DNA of 55,667 nt, taken from assembly GCA_003818505.1 (NCBI GenBank), contig RPRI01000027.1:1-55667 (forward strand). The letters run 5' to 3'. This document shows positions 2,893 to 36,233 of the stretch, one piece after another. Each line of letters begins with the position of its first letter. Position 1 is the stretch's first letter. The translations under genes were made by a program, and so were the position numbers. A model generated the notes under the pieces. That model was not told the DNA's origin, did not search any database, and saw only the letters and a program-made list of their open reading frames with translations. The stretch comes from Desulfobacteraceae bacterium. GTDB taxonomy: Bacteria > Desulfobacterota > Desulfobacteria > Desulfobacterales > RPRI01.

Positions 2893-3018
2893 ACGGCAAA
2901 GTAAAAAGCTCATTATGCAAGGCGTCGCGAATCTTGAGGAATGAAGCGTACATGTTAGTACGCTGCAATGACGAAAGATGAAGCGCAACACCGCAGAATG
3001 ACTTTTTACGAAGCCGTC
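2893..3018. repeat. Family 1 inverted-repeat element (126 bp), inside the ABC operon
   Basis: Nearly the same sequence and length as the copies at 35878-36003 and 46474-46599. Ends are ACGGCAAAGTAAAAAGCTC on the left and GACTTTTTACGAAGCCGTC on the right, an imperfect terminal inverted repeat. A central small palindrome surrounds GTACGC. It sits between ATPase 2 and permease 1, so the operon mRNA would carry it as a hairpin. One of its reading frames runs into the permease gene and creates a false N-terminal extension. Confidence 0.85.
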
Positions 3019-5606: not shown

Positions 5607-6830
5607 ATGAAGAAACAACTATGGCGTGACAGTTGGCTGATGGCAATCTGCATTGGCCGGATATTCATGTATATGAACTACATGGTTTATGCCGCGTGTC
5701 TGCCGATCTTAAAGAGCGAATGGGAGATGTCGGCAACTCAGGCCGGCTCGATTGCGTCCGGATTCATGATAGGTTACTCTGTGTCGCTTGCTGTCGCATC
5801 CTGGCTGTCGGATCATTTCGGCGCCCGTCGGATATTCGTACTGTCGACGATCACCGGCATGGCCACCGCCCTCGTGTTCGGTTTCTTTGCACGCGACTAT
5901 CTCACGACATTGCTTCTCTATTCTTTGCTCGGCATCGCCCAGGGCGGCATCTATACTCCCGGCATAGTTTTAATGGCCGAGAGGTATCCGGTCGCTTGCC
6001 GTGGCGGCGCGGTCGGCTGGTTTATCGCGAGCACATCGCTGGGTTATGCATGCTCCCTGGTCGTTTCGGGAATCCTGGTCGCGGTAGGGGGTCATGTGCT
6101 CGCCTTCATAGGCACCGGTATTCTGCCGTCCGCTGGGGCTTTGATCTTATGGATCGCTCTCAGGAGTACGCCGAATATCATTCACGACCGCAGCAACGGA
6201 TTAAACTTCATGGCCGTTCTTAGGAACGAACGGAATGTCAGGTCCCTGATGGCAGGTTACACCTGTCATTGCTGGGAGCTGCTCGGCATGTGGGCATGGA
6301 CTCCCGCTTTTCTCGCGGCAAGTCTTGCTTTATCCGGTGCAGCCTCGATCCAGTCCGCAGAGATTGCCGCCTATTGCGTGGCCGCCATGCACATTGTCGG
6401 CGCCGTAGCTTCATCCACCATGGGGCATTTGTCGGATCTTCTGGGGCGGCGAGCCGTTTTAACCGGACTCGGCGCAGCCGGAGCAATTCTTTCCCTGATC
6501 TTCGGCTGGCTGGTCGCCGCGCCTCTGCCGATCCTGGTTGGACTGATGCTTATTTACGGATTTGTGGCGATCGGTGATTCCCCGGTGCTTTCGGCTGCAA
6601 TTACCGAAGTTGTTGCGCCCAATCGACTCGGGTCAGTACTGGCGGTACGTTCCCTTCTCGGGTTCGGCGCAGGCGCTATTGCACCGATGGCTTTCGGAGC
6701 AGTGCTTGATTACCTGCGCGTAGGCGATAGTGCTGCGTCGACATGGGGTCCAGCTTTTATGGTTTTCGCAATCGGGGGGTTTGGGGCTACCTGGTTTGCC
6801 TTGCGCTTACGAATGTCAGATAAAAAGTAG
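5607..6830 (+). CDS. Major facilitator superfamily transporter
   Basis: Twelve-segment MFS permease of 407 aa, the usual length. The loop between segments 2 and 3 has the motif A version SDHFGARR (about 64-71), and the second half repeats it as GHLSDLLGRR. The N-terminus (GRIFMYMNYMVYAACLPILK) resembles cyanate/nitrate-like and other CynX/MFS members, but the substrate cannot be told. The gene is richer in G and C than its neighbours, consistent with transfer from another lineage. It stands alone. The region after it carries only short repeats of GCGCACAGA. The start has AGGAG directly adjacent to the ATG, so initiation may rely on coupling to the small upstream frame. Confidence 0.85.
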   Translation: MKKQLWRDSWLMAICIGRIFMYMNYMVYAACLPILKSEWEMSATQAGSIASGFMIGYSVSLAVASWLSDHFGARRIFVLSTITGMATALVFGFFARDYLTTLLLYSLLGIAQGGIYTPGIVLMAERYPVACRGGAVGWFIASTSLGYACSLVVSGILVAVGGHVLAFIGTGILPSAGALILWIALRSTPNIIHDRSNGLNFMAVLRNERNVRSLMAGYTCHCWELLGMWAWTPAFLAASLALSGAASIQSAEIAAYCVAAMHIVGAVASSTMGHLSDLLGRRAVLTGLGAAGAILSLIFGWLVAAPLPILVGLMLIYGFVAIGDSPVLSAAITEVVAPNRLGSVLAVRSLLGFGAGAIAPMAFGAVLDYLRVGDSAASTWGPAFMVFAIGGFGATWFALRLRMSDKK

Positions 6831-6985
6831 ATTTAACTTAATCACACAAAGCGCACAGAGCGCACAGATAAAATCGTAGTGTTATAAATCGGCCGTTCCC
6901 GCCACAACATAAAGTACCTGCTAAAACTTGACATGCAAGTTAATTAATGCGATACACAAAGACGTGAAAAGCAAATCCTTATTAT

Positions 6986-6994
6986 CTTATATAA
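6986..6994 (+). promoter_or_regulatory. Possible archaeal-type TATA box
   Basis: CTTATATAA lies centred about 25 bases upstream of the ATG at 7015, the spacing expected for an archaeal TATA box with a leaderless transcript. No ribosome binding site precedes that ATG. The same bases could also be chance AT-rich sequence, since a bacterial -10 is not excluded. Confidence 0.35.
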
Positions 6995-7014
6995 TTACAT
7001 TATCTAGTAGTAAC

Positions 7015-7695
7015 ATGGAAAACAAATACAACTCACAATTATATGACGAGATAGCACCGCAAGGAATGGGCGACATTTACAAGACAGCGATAACCACTTA
7101 TATCCCTAAAACTATAAGGACAGCAACTGCGGTCGGACTTGTTGCATTACTACCAACAATGCTTCTGGCATCAGGATGCAAACACGTCGGCGTCAAACCG
7201 GGCGAAATCAGCCAGGAAGAAGCTTTAAAGAACCTATCCGGTGAAAGCCAAGGCGGAGGCGGAGGGGGCGGCGGTGGCGGTTGCTTCACACCAAACACAC
7301 CAGTCCTAATGTCAGACGACAAAACCAAACCAATCAAGCAAATTCAAATAGGCGACGAAGTCAAGTCTTTCGATTTTGAGAAGAACAAGGCAACAACCAG
7401 CAAAGTCATCGCACTTTTCAAATTCAAAAAGACCGAACACCTAATCATCAACGGACTCGAAGTAACGAAAACTCACCCATTCTGTATAGGCAAAGGACTC
7501 TGGAAAGAAGCGGGAATGCTGAAAGTCGGGGATGTCCTAATCGGAGAAGGCAACTCTGAAATAAAAATAGAGAGAATAGAAAAAGTCCAAAAGGATGTAG
7601 CAGTCCATAACTTCACAGTAGACGGAACACATAACTACTTCGTCTCAAACGGAGAAAAGAATTTTCTGGTTCATAATAAGGGCGGAAGTAGCTAA
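7015..7695 (+). CDS. Lipoprotein-like protein with a C-terminal Hint (intein-like) domain
   Basis: 226 aa from the chosen start. A hydrophobic segment (about 38-54) ends in a lipobox-like LASGC55. A short linker and ten glycines (80-89) follow, and the Hint domain begins at C90. Splicing-type motifs are visible: block A CFTPNTPVLM with IGDEV, block B T151-K-T-H154, and block G ending in V-H-N221. The residue after N221 is lysine, not C, S or T, so cleavage rather than protein splicing is expected, as in bacterial-intein-like or hedgehog-type Hint domains. Only five residues (KGGSS) follow. An in-frame start at 6928 would add 29 residues but has no better signal. It converges with the next gene, 12 bp away. 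Similar Hint tails are common in DPANN archaea and CPR bacteria, so the origin may be foreign. Confidence 0.75.
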   Translation: MENKYNSQLYDEIAPQGMGDIYKTAITTYIPKTIRTATAVGLVALLPTMLLASGCKHVGVKPGEISQEEALKNLSGESQGGGGGGGGGGCFTPNTPVLMSDDKTKPIKQIQIGDEVKSFDFEKNKATTSKVIALFKFKKTEHLIINGLEVTKTHPFCIGKGLWKEAGMLKVGDVLIGEGNSEIKIERIEKVQKDVAVHNFTVDGTHNYFVSNGEKNFLVHNKGGSS

Positions 7696-7707
7696 TTATT
7701 TATTGCT

Positions 7708-9351
7708 TTAATTAACCGTAAAACTATAGCTGTCTGAAACCGCATTACTATTGCCATCCACTCCAAAATAAGTTTCTGACTTAGTCCAAGAAGCTTCGTC
7801 TGTCCATAGCCACTCATTATTCGCAACGAGACTTCCTCCAGCGGGAATATAATTACTTCCAAACTTAGCCACTATATCTGTTTGAGTAGAGCAAAACAGA
7901 GGAGTAATACTTCCAGAATCACACTTCTGCCTACTATTAACCGTCACCCCGACATCTCCTCCAGTCTCACTCAGCGTCACATCGTAATACCACCAGTTCC
8001 CTCCTGTAAATCCAGGCGGCGGACTTCCGCAATTCTTACATAGGTTACTATAACTCGCACTCAGCACAGCCACCGCAGGCTCACAACTATTAGTCGCACT
8101 ATCACATATATACCCAGTCGGACAAATCTTCGTCCCCATCGCATTCTGTGTCGTCCCGCAATTACTTTCCTGAACAAACGAACTTCCTAAGCAGACGCTA
8201 TCCGTAGATGGCAACCATTCTGTTTCCACACATCCGCCACAATTCTTAGTCCCCACCGCGTCTCTCGTCGTCCCGCAATTACTTGTCTGGACAAATAGAG
8301 TTCCCGAACAAAAGTCATCCACAGAAGGCAACCAAATTGTCGGCACGCAAGCGCAAGGCACAATCGTGCTCACAGCGGTATCATATAATATGAAATTATC
8401 ACAAGACGACAATGTATCAGGACAATCGGGTAAATCTGCAGGAAGGGCACACGCGCTCTCCCAACTGCCAGCAAAGTTCCAACAACTATACTCATCGTCA
8501 TCCCCACCATTACAATCTCCGGATTCAAACCCGCCATCATAACCCGAACATAGAGCAGGATAATAATCAGTCTCAGCACATACATCACAAACCACATACG
8601 ACCTCTCCCGACAAACTCTCTTACTCAACACGTTAGGCACGCACACCCCACCAGCACACGACTCACTTACACCACAAACCTCCTCAACAACCGGGCTCGC
8701 TCCATATTCCAAACACGGGTCCGAATCAAAATTTCCACACTCGCTCCTCAAAACCTTAAGAAAATCACTCGAACAGAACAGAGGCGACCCGCCCGCTATA
8801 CAATCGTCCCTACAATAACCCTCAGGAAATCCGCCCTCCCAAAAAAACAACCTTACCTTCTTAGGAGAATACGTCGCATCTCCCCCCTCTCCAATCTCCG
8901 CAGAAACCACAACCTCTTCTACAAAAACATCCTTATCCAAAGTAGCATAAAAAATAATCGGGTCCATCTTACAATAATCATTCACATCCCCAAGATTACA
9001 AACCCTCAGCAGATACCCAAAACCCTCCGGAATCTTTCCCGCAACATAGTCATCCAAGGAATCATAAGCGGGGTCCCCCGGCAAATCGACATCGACACTC
9101 AACGCATCCAATCTCAAATCTCTCGAAATGGCAATCCCCTCCAAAATCTCATTCTGCACACTATAAGAATAATCGGAAACACTCAAAATCTCTCTCGCCG
9201 ACTGGTCGGAATAAACACTCATCATAACTCCCGCAACAATTAAAACTGAAATAGTCGCCTCCAGAATGTGAATCCAACCACCTTTGTTTCTATATAAATG
9301 TTGGTAGTCGAGGAATACATATTTCTTGACAATCTTTGGCCTTTCAGTCAC
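7708..9351 (-). CDS. Cysteine-rich membrane-anchored surface protein, DPANN archaea-like
   Basis: 547 aa, GTG start. The N-terminal part has KGGWIHILEATISVLIVAGV, a single membrane anchor (about 27-48) that resembles pseudopilin-like or surface proteins I recall from Woesearchaeota/Nanoarchaeota-type genomes. The rest is extracytoplasmic, poor in lysine and very rich in cysteine and aspartate. Around residues 335-410 are two tandem repeats of about 38 residues sharing WLPS-D-C-G-FVQ-SNCGTT-VGTK spacing. The C-terminal ~120 residues look like a beta-sandwich. No function is recognised. The start lies 31 bases from the next gene on the other strand, so the 5' end may be at a recombination junction and the N-terminus could be truncated or fused. 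Confidence 0.65.
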   Translation of the reverse strand: MTERPKIVKKYVFLDYQHLYRNKGGWIHILEATISVLIVAGVMMSVYSDQSAREILSVSDYSYSVQNEILEGIAISRDLRLDALSVDVDLPGDPAYDSLDDYVAGKIPEGFGYLLRVCNLGDVNDYCKMDPIIFYATLDKDVFVEEVVVSAEIGEGGDATYSPKKVRLFFWEGGFPEGYCRDDCIAGGSPLFCSSDFLKVLRSECGNFDSDPCLEYGASPVVEEVCGVSESCAGGVCVPNVLSKRVCRERSYVVCDVCAETDYYPALCSGYDGGFESGDCNGGDDDEYSCWNFAGSWESACALPADLPDCPDTLSSCDNFILYDTAVSTIVPCACVPTIWLPSVDDFCSGTLFVQTSNCGTTRDAVGTKNCGGCVETEWLPSTDSVCLGSSFVQESNCGTTQNAMGTKICPTGYICDSATNSCEPAVAVLSASYSNLCKNCGSPPPGFTGGNWWYYDVTLSETGGDVGVTVNSRQKCDSGSITPLFCSTQTDIVAKFGSNYIPAGGSLVANNEWLWTDEASWTKSETYFGVDGNSNAVSDSYSFTVN

Positions 9352-9382
9352 TATCTAGACAGACTAGACAGGAGGTATCGCT

Positions 9383-9637
9383 ATGAAGCACGTTTGGCAA
9401 CTACAGGAAGCAAAAAACAAGTTCAGTGAAGTAGTGGAAAGTGCGCTTTCCCACGGACCGCAACTCGTAACAAAACGGGGTGTTGAAGCCGTCGTCGTAT
9501 TGTCCTACAAAGACTATCGCAAATTGCTGGCTTCCCCAAAACCCCTCTCTGAATTCTTCCGCCAATCCCCATTGGCAGGTATTGACCTTGACCTGAAGCG
9601 CAATATGGACTCCGTACGTTCGGACATTGACCTATGA
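9383..9637 (+). CDS. Phd/YefM family antitoxin
   Basis: 84 aa. The N-terminus VWQLQEAKNKFSEVVESA with VTKRGVEAVVVLSYKDYRKL is the classic Phd/YefM dimerisation and DNA-binding fold. The C-terminal part (from about residue 55) is the toxin-binding tail. A strong AGGAGG lies seven bases before the ATG. It overlaps the toxin gene by four bases (ATGA). It neutralises the downstream PIN RNase and likely represses its own promoter. Direct repeats CTAGACAG at 9355-9370 just upstream could be an operator. Confidence 0.92.
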   Translation: MKHVWQLQEAKNKFSEVVESALSHGPQLVTKRGVEAVVVLSYKDYRKLLASPKPLSEFFRQSPLAGIDLDLKRNMDSVRSDIDL

Positions 9638-10053
9638 AATACCTTCTGGATACCTGCGTGATTTCCGAACTGGTCGCCCGGAACCCCCTGGGCAAAGTTG
9701 TTGAATGGATCGACAGGATCGATCCGGAGCAAGTTTACCTGAGCGTTGTCACCATCGGCGAGATCCGAAAGGGCATTCAAAAGCTTCCCGACTCGCAGCG
9801 AAAGGAAACTCTTCAAGAATGGCTTGCTTACGACCTGCTGGATCGATTTCAGGGGCGAATCCTCCCCATCGACACAGAGGTCATGTTGACATGGGGACGG
9901 CTTGTCGGCAATCTGGAGTTACAGGGCAAGAAGATGGCGGCTATGGATTCACTGATCGCGGCTATCGTACTGCACGGAGGACTGACGCTTGCAACGCGAA
10001 ACGAAGAAGATTTTAAGCATGCAGAGATCCAGCTGGCGAATCCCTGGACTTAA
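9634..10053 (+). CDS. vapC: VapC/FitB-type PIN-domain toxin (RNase)
   Basis: 139 aa PIN nuclease. The acidic metal-binding residues are visible at D6 (YLLDTCVISE), E43 (TIGEIRKGI) and D105 (AMDSLIAA), with the ATRNEEDF end of the active site near D126. FitB/VapC members typically cleave tRNA or rRNA and are held inactive by the cognate Phd-type antitoxin encoded just upstream with a four-base overlap. The gene is complete and probably functional. The pair is somewhat richer in GC than nearby genes, as expected of a mobile stability module. Confidence 0.92.
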   Translation: MKYLLDTCVISELVARNPLGKVVEWIDRIDPEQVYLSVVTIGEIRKGIQKLPDSQRKETLQEWLAYDLLDRFQGRILPIDTEVMLTWGRLVGNLELQGKKMAAMDSLIAAIVLHGGLTLATRNEEDFKHAEIQLANPWT

Positions 10054-10213: not shown

Positions 10214-10338
10214 GACAGCAAAGTAAAAAGTACATTATGAAAGGCGCGCGAATCTTGAGGAATGAGGCGTACACAGAAGTACGCTGCAATGACGAAAGAT
10301 GAAGTGCAACACAGCAGAATGACTTTTTACGAAGCTGT
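10214..10338. repeat. Family 1 inverted-repeat element at the epmA stop codon
   Basis: Ends GACAGCAAAGTAAAAAGTAC and GACTTTTTACGAAGCTGT form the imperfect terminal inverted repeat of family 1. Read on the minus strand, the element starts directly at the TAA stop of epmA (10338-10340), in the same orientation to the gene as the other stop-linked copies. The 150 bp between the PIN toxin and the element hold no gene. Confidence 0.85.
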
Positions 10339-11237
10339 TAAAGCTCTTCGGGAGTAAATGCCACCACATCATCAATTCTTTCCGCGTTGGCAAAGAGCAT
10401 GATCAGCCTGTCGAGACCGAGAGCGTTGCCGGATGCACCCGGCATTTGAGAAATAGATTCAAGAAATTTTTCGGGCATGGGATATTCTTTTTTACCGGTA
10501 TTTTTGCGGAAGGCGAGCTCTTTTTCAAAGCGAGCTCGCTGCTCTTCGGGGTCGGTCAGTTCAGTAAAGCCGTTGCACAGTTCAACTCCTGAGATATAGA
10601 GTTCAAAACGCTCGGCAACCGAACTCTCTCCGGTTTTAAGTTTTGCAAGCGCTCCACAGGAGGCAGGATAATCATAAAGGAAAAGAGGCGCGCTTTGTCC
10701 GAGGGCAGGTTCTATTTCAGCCATTGTTTCATCGAAGCGGTTTTCTGAAAGAGCTTTATCAACCGATATCGAAGCGTATTTATCAAAAGCTTCGGCTACA
10801 GTCATTCTTTCCCATGGACCGGCAAGATCGATTCTGCTGCCAAGATAATTTATCGAATTGCCTGAGACTGACTTTAAGGCAACATCTTTAATCAGGTCTT
10901 CGGTTTCTTCCATCATGCCAAAATAATCCGAATCCGCGCGGTACCATTCCAGCATTGTAAATTCGGGAATATGCCTTGAGCCTCTTTCATTTTGTCTGAA
11001 ACACCTGCATATCTGGAATATCCGTGGATAACCCGCGGCAAGAAGTCTTTTCATGCACAACTCCGGGGAAGTGTGAAGGAACAGGTCTTCAGATTCTATC
11101 GCATCTACATTGGCTTCAGGGGCCGGAGCCGGAATCCTTACCGGAGTTTCCACCTCAAGATAATCATGTCCGGCAAAAAACATCCGGACAGCTTGAATAA
11201 TTCCTGCGCGCAGAACGAGATTGTTTTTTCTTTTCAC
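10338..11237 (-). CDS. epmA: EpmA-type elongation factor P (R)-beta-lysine ligase
   Basis: 299 aa protein related to the catalytic core of class II lysyl-tRNA synthetase but without the anticodon-binding domain, the hallmark of EpmA (GenX/PoxA/YjeA). Motif 2 is visible as RCFRQNERGSRHIPEFTMLEW and motif 3 as GNALGLDRLIMLF. It would attach beta-lysine to EF-P so that ribosomes pass polyproline stretches. The start is GTG, preceded by AGGGG five bases upstream. The usual partner genes (EF-P itself and the lysine 2,3-aminomutase EpmB) are not in the window, so they must lie elsewhere or be absent. Confidence 0.9.
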   Translation of the reverse strand: MKRKNNLVLRAGIIQAVRMFFAGHDYLEVETPVRIPAPAPEANVDAIESEDLFLHTSPELCMKRLLAAGYPRIFQICRCFRQNERGSRHIPEFTMLEWYRADSDYFGMMEETEDLIKDVALKSVSGNSINYLGSRIDLAGPWERMTVAEAFDKYASISVDKALSENRFDETMAEIEPALGQSAPLFLYDYPASCGALAKLKTGESSVAERFELYISGVELCNGFTELTDPEEQRARFEKELAFRKNTGKKEYPMPEKFLESISQMPGASGNALGLDRLIMLFANAERIDDVVAFTPEEL

Positions 11238-19187: not shown

Positions 19188-19569
19188 CCCTCCTGATCAG
19201 TGCGCTGCCCAGCGCACACTATGCCCTCGGCTGACTTGCCCGCCCTTCCCCTTATCTCGCGATAACGGTAGCACATATGGCAAGCCGGCAGATCTCCCCG
19301 GGTATTGCGCACACACCTTCACCCCAGATACCTGTCGCATCTACTCCCACGCTTTCCGGATGACTATCGGGCTTTGAATCTTATTGCCCTCTCGCTCAAA
19401 CGCGGTTGCCTCCTATGCGCTTCGTGTTCCTCAGGCCGGGGCTTTGCCTTCCGCTTCCTTCAGACCCCGCCTCGCGGCGATAGCCCTTGCGGTTCAGCTA
19501 ACGGTTCCCGTCATCAGGGTCCGTAGAGAACTTACACCTCCAAATACGTGCGCCCTGCCGGGCGTACAA

Positions 19570-34887: not shown

Positions 34888-35879
34888 ACGGACTGCTTTT
34901 CATAGATGACGAGGAGGGGGTGCGCCGTTCCGTTGTCAGGGCTCTCAAAAATGAGCCTTATGAGTTATTCACCTCGGCTGACGGGGAGGAGGGCATAGAA
35001 TTTATAAAGAAAAACCTCTCTCTTTTGTCGACGGTTATTTCGGATTACAGGATGCCGGGGTTAAACGGCCTTGATACGCTCGCCGCCGTTGGAATGATCA
35101 ATCCGGAGGTGACGAGGATAATTCTGACCGGATATGCGACAATGGAAGCCGCAATACTTGCGACAAACGAAGGAATCGATGGTTTCCTCACCAAGCCTTT
35201 CGACAATATCGAGTTAAGAGCCAAAATCCGGGAGATAAATGTGCGGAAAAGGCTGCGGCAGTTTGTTTCCCAGCAGATATACAGGGAGATAGAGAATTCA
35301 ACCGGGTATCTCAAGCCTACATTTCATGAGGTTTCAATTCTCTTTTCGGACATCCGCGGGTTTACCAATATGTCCCAGAATATTTCTCCGGATACTCTGG
35401 CCGAATTTCTGAATAATTATTATTTTTCGCCTCTGGGAGAGATAGCGTACAACTTCAACGGGACTGTTGATAAACATATAGGAGACAGCATAATGGTCGC
35501 TTACGGTTCTCCTGTTTTGTTTCCCGATGATGCCGACAGGGCGGTGAAATCGGCAATAGAAATGCAGGAGAAGGCGAGACAGATAGATGATATGCTTGGA
35601 GGGAGAAACGGCCTCAGGCTCAGGATAGGTATCGGAATCGCAACAGGCAAGGTCTTTTCAGGCGTGCTCGGATCTTTACGAAAGAAGGAATATTCTTCGG
35701 TGGGAATGGCGGTAAATATGGCGGCAAGATTGCAGAGCCGGGCAAAGGAAAGAGAAATCTTAATCAGTGAATCGACTTTTGCGAGGCTTTCAAAGGATAT
35801 AGAAGCCGAAGCTCTTCCCCCGGTAAACGTAAAAGGAATCAGCAAACCCGTCAATATATATAAAGTCAGATATCCTTGA
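34884..35879 (+). CDS. Response regulator fused to class III adenylate cyclase
   Basis: 331 aa. Receiver domain 1-120 with D8-D9, phospho-acceptor D54, T82 and K104. A helical linker follows, then the cyclase domain from about 145. Metal-binding aspartates are D156 (FSDIRGFT) and D201 (KHIGDSIM). K197 is the adenine-specifying lysine and S271 sits at the partner position. N278 and R282 (MAVNMAARL) are the transition-state residues. The Asp usual four before the Asn (IGDxVN) is Met. It should therefore make cAMP upon phosphorylation by an unidentified kinase. It is translationally coupled to dusB. Its TGA stop is the first part of a family 1 repeat. Confidence 0.9.
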   Translation: MNGLLFIDDEEGVRRSVVRALKNEPYELFTSADGEEGIEFIKKNLSLLSTVISDYRMPGLNGLDTLAAVGMINPEVTRIILTGYATMEAAILATNEGIDGFLTKPFDNIELRAKIREINVRKRLRQFVSQQIYREIENSTGYLKPTFHEVSILFSDIRGFTNMSQNISPDTLAEFLNNYYFSPLGEIAYNFNGTVDKHIGDSIMVAYGSPVLFPDDADRAVKSAIEMQEKARQIDDMLGGRNGLRLRIGIGIATGKVFSGVLGSLRKKEYSSVGMAVNMAARLQSRAKEREILISESTFARLSKDIEAEALPPVNVKGISKPVNIYKVRYP

Positions 35880-36003
35880 CGGCTTCGTAAAAAGTCACTC
35901 TGCTGTGTTGCGCTTCATCTTTCGTCATTGCAGCGTACTTATATGTACGCTTCATTCCTCAAGATTTGCGCGCCTTGCATATTGAGCTTTTTCCTTTGCC
36001 GTC
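35878..36003. repeat. Family 1 inverted-repeat element at the cyclase stop codon
   Basis: 126 bp, near-identical to 46474-46599 and, in reverse, 2893-3018. Starts GACGGCTTCGTAAAAAGTC, with the TGA stop of the cyclase gene overlapping its first bases, and ends GAGCTTTTTCCTTTGCCGTC. It contains a central GCGTAC/GTACGC palindrome. The 230 bp that follow up to the lipoprotein gene stop hold no gene. Confidence 0.88.
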
Positions 36004-36233
36004 AATTACTTCGAAAAAAGGTCTGAGGCGCAAGTCGTAAGGTATAAGTCGTAAAAGATGAAGAGTGGAGAGTTGCGGCTTTTTTTCGATACCACCATAT
36101 TGCTGTGAGAATTAAAATGAGACCCTTGAAGAAAGCTCAATTTTGGCCAAGTACAAGGAAGGCGATAATTTTAACCGCAAGAATACTTTGAGGTATTTCG
36201 AGGATGAAAATTAGAGACTGACACAGTAATCGG

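Follow-up and report, generated by a model that had tools for sequence, protein, structure and literature searches.

Positions 6986-9300 of the 55,667-bp stretch of DNA that was analyzed (the window) are chromosomal DNA of a DPANN archaeon, a tiny organism of the parasitic type, and are present within a contig of a bacterium. The window corresponds to the full length of contig C81 in G000, a metagenome-assembled bacterial genome of 352 contigs (4.43 Mb) with a completeness of 98.2% and a contamination of 5.7%. Genes for TRAP/TAXI transporters and for radical SAM proteins of the haem pathway suggest that these bacteria may be anaerobes resembling Desulfobacterota. Parts of this archaeal locus recur in G000 as well as in two further bacteria from the same order, from which it follows that archaeal DNA entered these bacteria more than once. 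The observations are very probably explained jointly by the integration of a DPANN chromosomal fragment in the bacterial chromosome, through separate transfers and end joining, and by its retention behind a bacterial promoter. The genomes searched comprised 291 bacterial genomes from the genus and order of G000, and ten DPANN genomes that were entered via a tRNA-Ser pattern.

The insert is flanked by an MFS transporter gene on the left (5607-6830) and by a phd-vapC pair on the right (9383-10053), and the bacterial nature that the initial annotation had ascribed to both flanks is borne out by the domain matches, which comprise MFS at E=5e-33 as well as Phd and PIN. That annotation had placed a foreign stretch at 6928-9360 and had proposed a comparison of its k-mer composition with the rest. 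The insert indeed is the most deviant part of the window, as its tetranucleotide deviation was exceeded by none of 195 comparison stretches of equal length (2.3 kb), but the limits had to be corrected to those given in Table 1.

Table 1. Coordinates of the archaeal insert, its genes and its bacterial surroundings in the window
Feature	Position	Strand	Basis
MFS transporter, left bacterial neighbour	5607..6830	+	Orthologues 88-90% identical in same-genus G001 and G007
Dispersed bacterial promoter-like repeat, one copy	6905..6985	+	Around 27 copies in the genus, before unrelated genes
Insert, DPANN archaeal chromosome, 2315 bp	6986..9300	.	No insert at the corresponding site of G005; strongest tetranucleotide deviation in the window
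Archaeal TATA box CTTATATAA of the lipoprotein gene	6986..6994	+	Position conserved in DPANN G531 and G532
Archaeal lipoprotein (lipobox Cys55), Gly10 tract, then C-terminal Hint/BIL domain (residues 90-221)	7015..7695	+	Short Gly-rich lipoprotein in the same place in G531 and G532
DPANN pilin-like Cys-rich protein gene, without start codon and promoter	7708..9288	-	DPANN orthologues, comparison with C177, tree
Right junction, ambiguous 12 nt	9289..9300	.	Junction comparison
Bacterial phd-vapC toxin-antitoxin module with its own promoter	9301..10053	+	89% identical in G005, there directly 3' of the promoter-like repeat

The first gene of the insert encodes a lipoprotein of 226 amino acids with a Hint domain (PT-HINT, E=4e-13), as had been suggested before. 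Its start, however, is the ATG at 7015 and not the TTG at 6928, which is spurious considering that 6905-6985 is a bacterial promoter-like repeat. The TATA-like sequence reported upstream of the gene is not there by chance, as the spacing between the TATA box and the ATG is equal in the window and in the DPANN genomes G531 and G532; in addition, TTATCTAGTAGTAACATGGAA in the upstream region is identical letter for letter in G531 and the window. The ATG in the window is not preceded by a Shine-Dalgarno sequence, again in agreement with the earlier reading. The closest solved relative of the Hint domain by sequence is the bacterial intein-like (BIL) domain 2LWY (E=4e-10). Like other BIL/PT-HINT domains it starts with a Cys, contains a TxxH motif (TKTH) and ends in HN, but it is positioned at the C-terminus of a lipoprotein, following a Gly10 tract. 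Given that a Lys follows the HN, the domain is predicted to cleave rather than to splice.

The convergent gene encodes an acidic protein with 34 Cys in 526 residues, an N-terminal hydrophobic segment and an WIHILEATISVLIV anchor, which agrees with the anchored Cys-rich protein described initially. The reading frame extends from 7708 to 9351, yet it is archaeal only up to around 9288, and the comparison with the copy on contig C177 (see below) and the DPANN orthologues made clear that the start codon is absent. No family within Pfam and NCBIfam matched the protein, and its single-sequence structure prediction (pLDDT 35) gave an unusable model. The N-terminal 160 residues have exactly one homolog in nine of the ten DPANN genomes. 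The best orthologues that include the Cys-rich part were found in G531 (E=1.6e-89), G433 (7e-82), G532 (9e-69) and G533 (3e-64), and the long Cys-rich forms are limited to one order among the DPANN genomes examined. The closest relatives of the protein thus are DPANN genes, and for this protein the best-hit taxonomy that the initial annotation had asked for confirms the DPANN-like character it had proposed. The Cys-rich gene also has a small Gly-rich lipoprotein gene convergent to it in both G531 and G532, as is the case in the window. In G531 the Cys-rich gene also adjoins the genes for the F and E proteins of type II/IV secretion (T2SSF, T2SSE), and on that basis its product is best interpreted as a pilin-like surface protein. 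The protein shares with the archaeal type IV pilins of DPANN the short N-terminal segment and the hydrophobic helix, and differs from them in its long Cys-rich C-terminal extension.

The same gene pair is found on C177 of G000, again with bacterial DNA on both sides. Its Cys-rich protein is 84% identical to that of C81 over 350 residues. Past the Cys-rich gene, C177 contains an archaeal SRP RNA (E=2.6e-11, which is under the Rfam gathering score) and then a tRNA-Ser, in the same order as in G532, to which the DNA is 79% identical over 500 bp. DPANN origin is therefore apparent not only from the closest relatives, but also from an archaeal promoter in the window and from archaeal RNA genes in conserved order on C177. 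The archaeal ends of the two copies differ: on C81 they lie at the lipoprotein TATA box and within the first codons of the Cys-rich gene, on C177 inside the lipoprotein signal peptide and just past the tRNA-Ser. Beyond the shared bacterial repeat the two lipoproteins cannot be aligned, their middle parts included. A 55-bp stretch common to C81 and C177 was considered as an archaeal 5' gene end and rejected, as the comparison with G005, a genome of the same genus, identified it as bacterial repeat.

Among the 291 bacterial genomes two other carriers were found, namely G078, a closed genome of one 3.94-Mb contig with one copy, and G700, with two copies on contigs of 1.25 and 1.33 Mb. This brings the total to five copies in three bacterial genomes; the other nine genomes of the genus lack the locus, and G691, which gave a marginal match only (E=0.007), was left out of the count. 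The copies of G078 and G700 have ordinary bacterial neighbours, with dnaK, grpE and tilS near the former as read from the sequences. In G078 the Cys-rich gene is interrupted, and in G700 one copy has a truncated Cys-rich gene and the other a frameshifted lipoprotein gene. Beside the truncated one (locus L195) a gene for a protein of 157 amino acids without Pfam match was observed at 8798-9271, which probably is part of the same DPANN insert. In a maximum-likelihood tree all bacterial copies nest within DPANN, and the Cys-rich gene nests inside one DPANN order.

The left end of the insert directly follows a bacterial repeat with a 64-bp core (6924-6985) that contains a Sigma-70-like promoter, TTGACA - 17 nt - GATACA ... 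GAAAAGCAAAT. Around 27 copies are dispersed before unrelated genes in the genus (loci L200-L229), and the element possibly is a mobile promoter. Two copies flank phd-vapC in G005, and the repeat was therefore also considered as an integron attC site; this was rejected because of its dispersal before unrelated genes, and at the insert it is present on the left only instead of at both ends. G000 contains five good copies of the repeat, and at two of these a DPANN insert begins no more than 10 bp further on. Simple arithmetic (around 100 bp of 4.4 Mb, twice) indicates that these starts are not due to chance, so that there is either a preference for the site or a retention of such inserts. In C81, C177 and G078 the lipoprotein end carries a bacterial promoter-like sequence, and in the last of these the gene has both a TTGACA promoter and a Shine-Dalgarno sequence. 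As judged from this arrangement, the lipoprotein may sometimes be used by the bacteria, with the Cys-rich gene as a passenger. The frameshifted lipoprotein gene of G700 does not fit this and argues against selection for the lipoprotein there.

As a control, four other DPANN proteins (a pilus F protein, an ERCC4-type nuclease, a tRNA methyltransferase-like protein and the neighbouring pilin-like protein), taken from two DPANN genomes, were joined into one query and searched against the same 291 genomes. Within the best two candidates per genome no match of DPANN-like identity was recovered; the matches were to widespread bacterial ERCC4-type nucleases at 26-40% identity and the rest were few and weak. 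Five copies against none for the other genes suggest that transfer is biased to this locus and are hard to square with random uptake, with the limitation to this comparison that the Cys-rich gene itself had served as the query that uncovered the bacterial copies. The bias, like the fact that both G000 inserts start at the same kind of repeat, could be taken to mean that the gene pair is a small element that moves in DPANN and bacteria by its own mobility. We consider this unlikely, given that the ends of the copies differ, that C177 carries SRP RNA and tRNA-Ser and one of the G700 copies another gene, and that no transposase, integrase/recombinase or terminal inverted repeats were found in the insert. 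Moreover, a target duplication at the C81 junctions was not significant (the best direct repeat was reached by 58 of 500 shuffles) and the insert proteins had no relatives among plasmids, phages and viral contigs. A search of the genome contigs collection with these proteins also gave no match. The simplest explanation is end-joining of DNA that had been taken up.

With respect to the number of transfers, C81, C177 and G078 group together in the tree (98/99), for which it should be taken into account that the bootstrap was incompletely settled and that G078 forms a long branch. This grouping would be expected from one ancient transfer into the order, followed by duplication and loss. Such a history is nevertheless decidedly improbable: the well-supported branches place the G700 copies apart and force at least two origins, the nine other genomes of the genus lack the locus, and C81 and C177 differ in their archaeal ends and lipoprotein middles, with the SRP-tRNA order of G532 present only in the latter. 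The tree thus establishes two transfers, and the differing end points and dN/dS values make four or more likely. Between C81 and C177 dS is 0.32 and dN 0.08, and between both G700 copies 0.18 and 0.04, respectively, which corresponds to a dN/dS of around 0.25 and indicates that much of the divergence arose under constraint. Considering that the copies in each pair are partly broken, the constraint was probably exerted while the genes still resided in the archaeal donors, which favors separate transfers, with donors that were related. These values may also be compatible with a period during which the genes functioned in the bacteria, and for C177 constraint before transfer and function after transfer are indistinguishable.

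The initial annotation had left the choice between gene transfer from a DPANN-like genome and a chimeric join. Since the MAG consists of 352 contigs with 5.7% contamination, a DPANN contig of the same sample could in principle have been joined into bacterial contigs during assembly or binning. This would require four false joins in two contigs, with end points that differ, whereas C81 and C177 contain no ambiguous N bases and no archaeal TBP gene was found in the bin. In addition, the equivalent site is unoccupied in G005, where the repeat (window 6919-6985) directly precedes the phd-vapC promoter (window 9301 onward) and the two matches lie immediately next to each other (positions 5645 and 5644 in locus L198). 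This empty site is good but not perfect evidence, as the left match covers 67 bp at 76% identity and the wider left neighbourhood is non-syntenic. Finally, the locus is present in a one-contig genome and on contigs of more than 1.2 Mb elsewhere, with some copies decayed. Together with the bacterial flanks of both copies in the bin this speaks for transfer, the former of the two proposals, and renders a chimera very unlikely. For the reverse direction, in which DPANN would have acquired a bacterial gene pair, no supporting point was found, and it is hardly conceivable in view of the archaeal promoters, SRP RNA and tRNA, the single occurrence of the N-terminal domain in most sampled DPANN genomes, its position beside type IV pilus genes in G531 and the absence of the locus from 287-288 of the 291 bacterial relatives.

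For the preferred reading, transfer from DPANN, the following course of events can be envisaged. DNA of related DPANN donors would have been taken up or delivered by contact in separate events, and joined end to end with no specialized recombinase involved. The pieces would have been kept mainly where a bacterial promoter came to lie ahead of the lipoprotein gene and allowed its expression. The Cys-rich gene would then be a decaying passenger, having lost its start in the window and having been interrupted in G078 and truncated in one G700 copy. Gene exchange of DPANN has been documented and served to infer their partners (PMC8407114), while in 2022 it was described as not yet known whether DPANN can have bacterial hosts (PMC9123182). 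The present case resembles reported interdomain transfer involving DPANN (PMC8407114, PMC7414124) in that DNA is exchanged between DPANN and other microbes. It differs in that DPANN DNA resides in bacteria, that one locus recurs, and that non-coding neighbours (SRP RNA, tRNA) and archaeal promoters are still recognisable. None of the titles and abstracts retrieved from a collection of open-licence papers described fragments of DPANN chromosomes within those of bacteria. It is conceivable, though rather doubtful, that the bacteria are contact partners of DPANN, or are regularly visited by such partners, so that one surface-protein locus arrives repeatedly and its lipoprotein is adopted behind a bacterial promoter. 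In any case, the repeated integration of DPANN DNA in one bacterial order, a closed genome included, is a lasting record of DNA passage. Bacteria and DPANN lineages that can be sought together are thereby indicated, and the DPANN-bacteria question becomes accessible to tests by imaging and co-sorting as well as by broader scans of genomes.

Some further features of the surroundings were observed. The DPANN inserts tend to adjoin defence-type or plastic genes: phd-vapC in the window, an AbiE-like pair in L194, a nucleotidyltransferase and a DUF4143-like ATPase in L195, and a DUF4143 ATPase in L005. In L195 a shared short repeat flanks both sides in opposite orientation (8215-8280 and 10298-10353). 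The MFS gene has a G+C content of around 54%, above that of its surroundings, and its neighbourhoods differ in G001 and G007, which suggests that it may itself have moved. Furthermore, the window contains a repeat of around 125 bp at 10214-10342, also found near 2893-3017 and 35876-36005, copies of which (86-94% identical) occur on very many contigs in most genomes of the genus, and a match to group II intron D1-D4-3 on the minus strand at 19307-19481 (E=5e-26).
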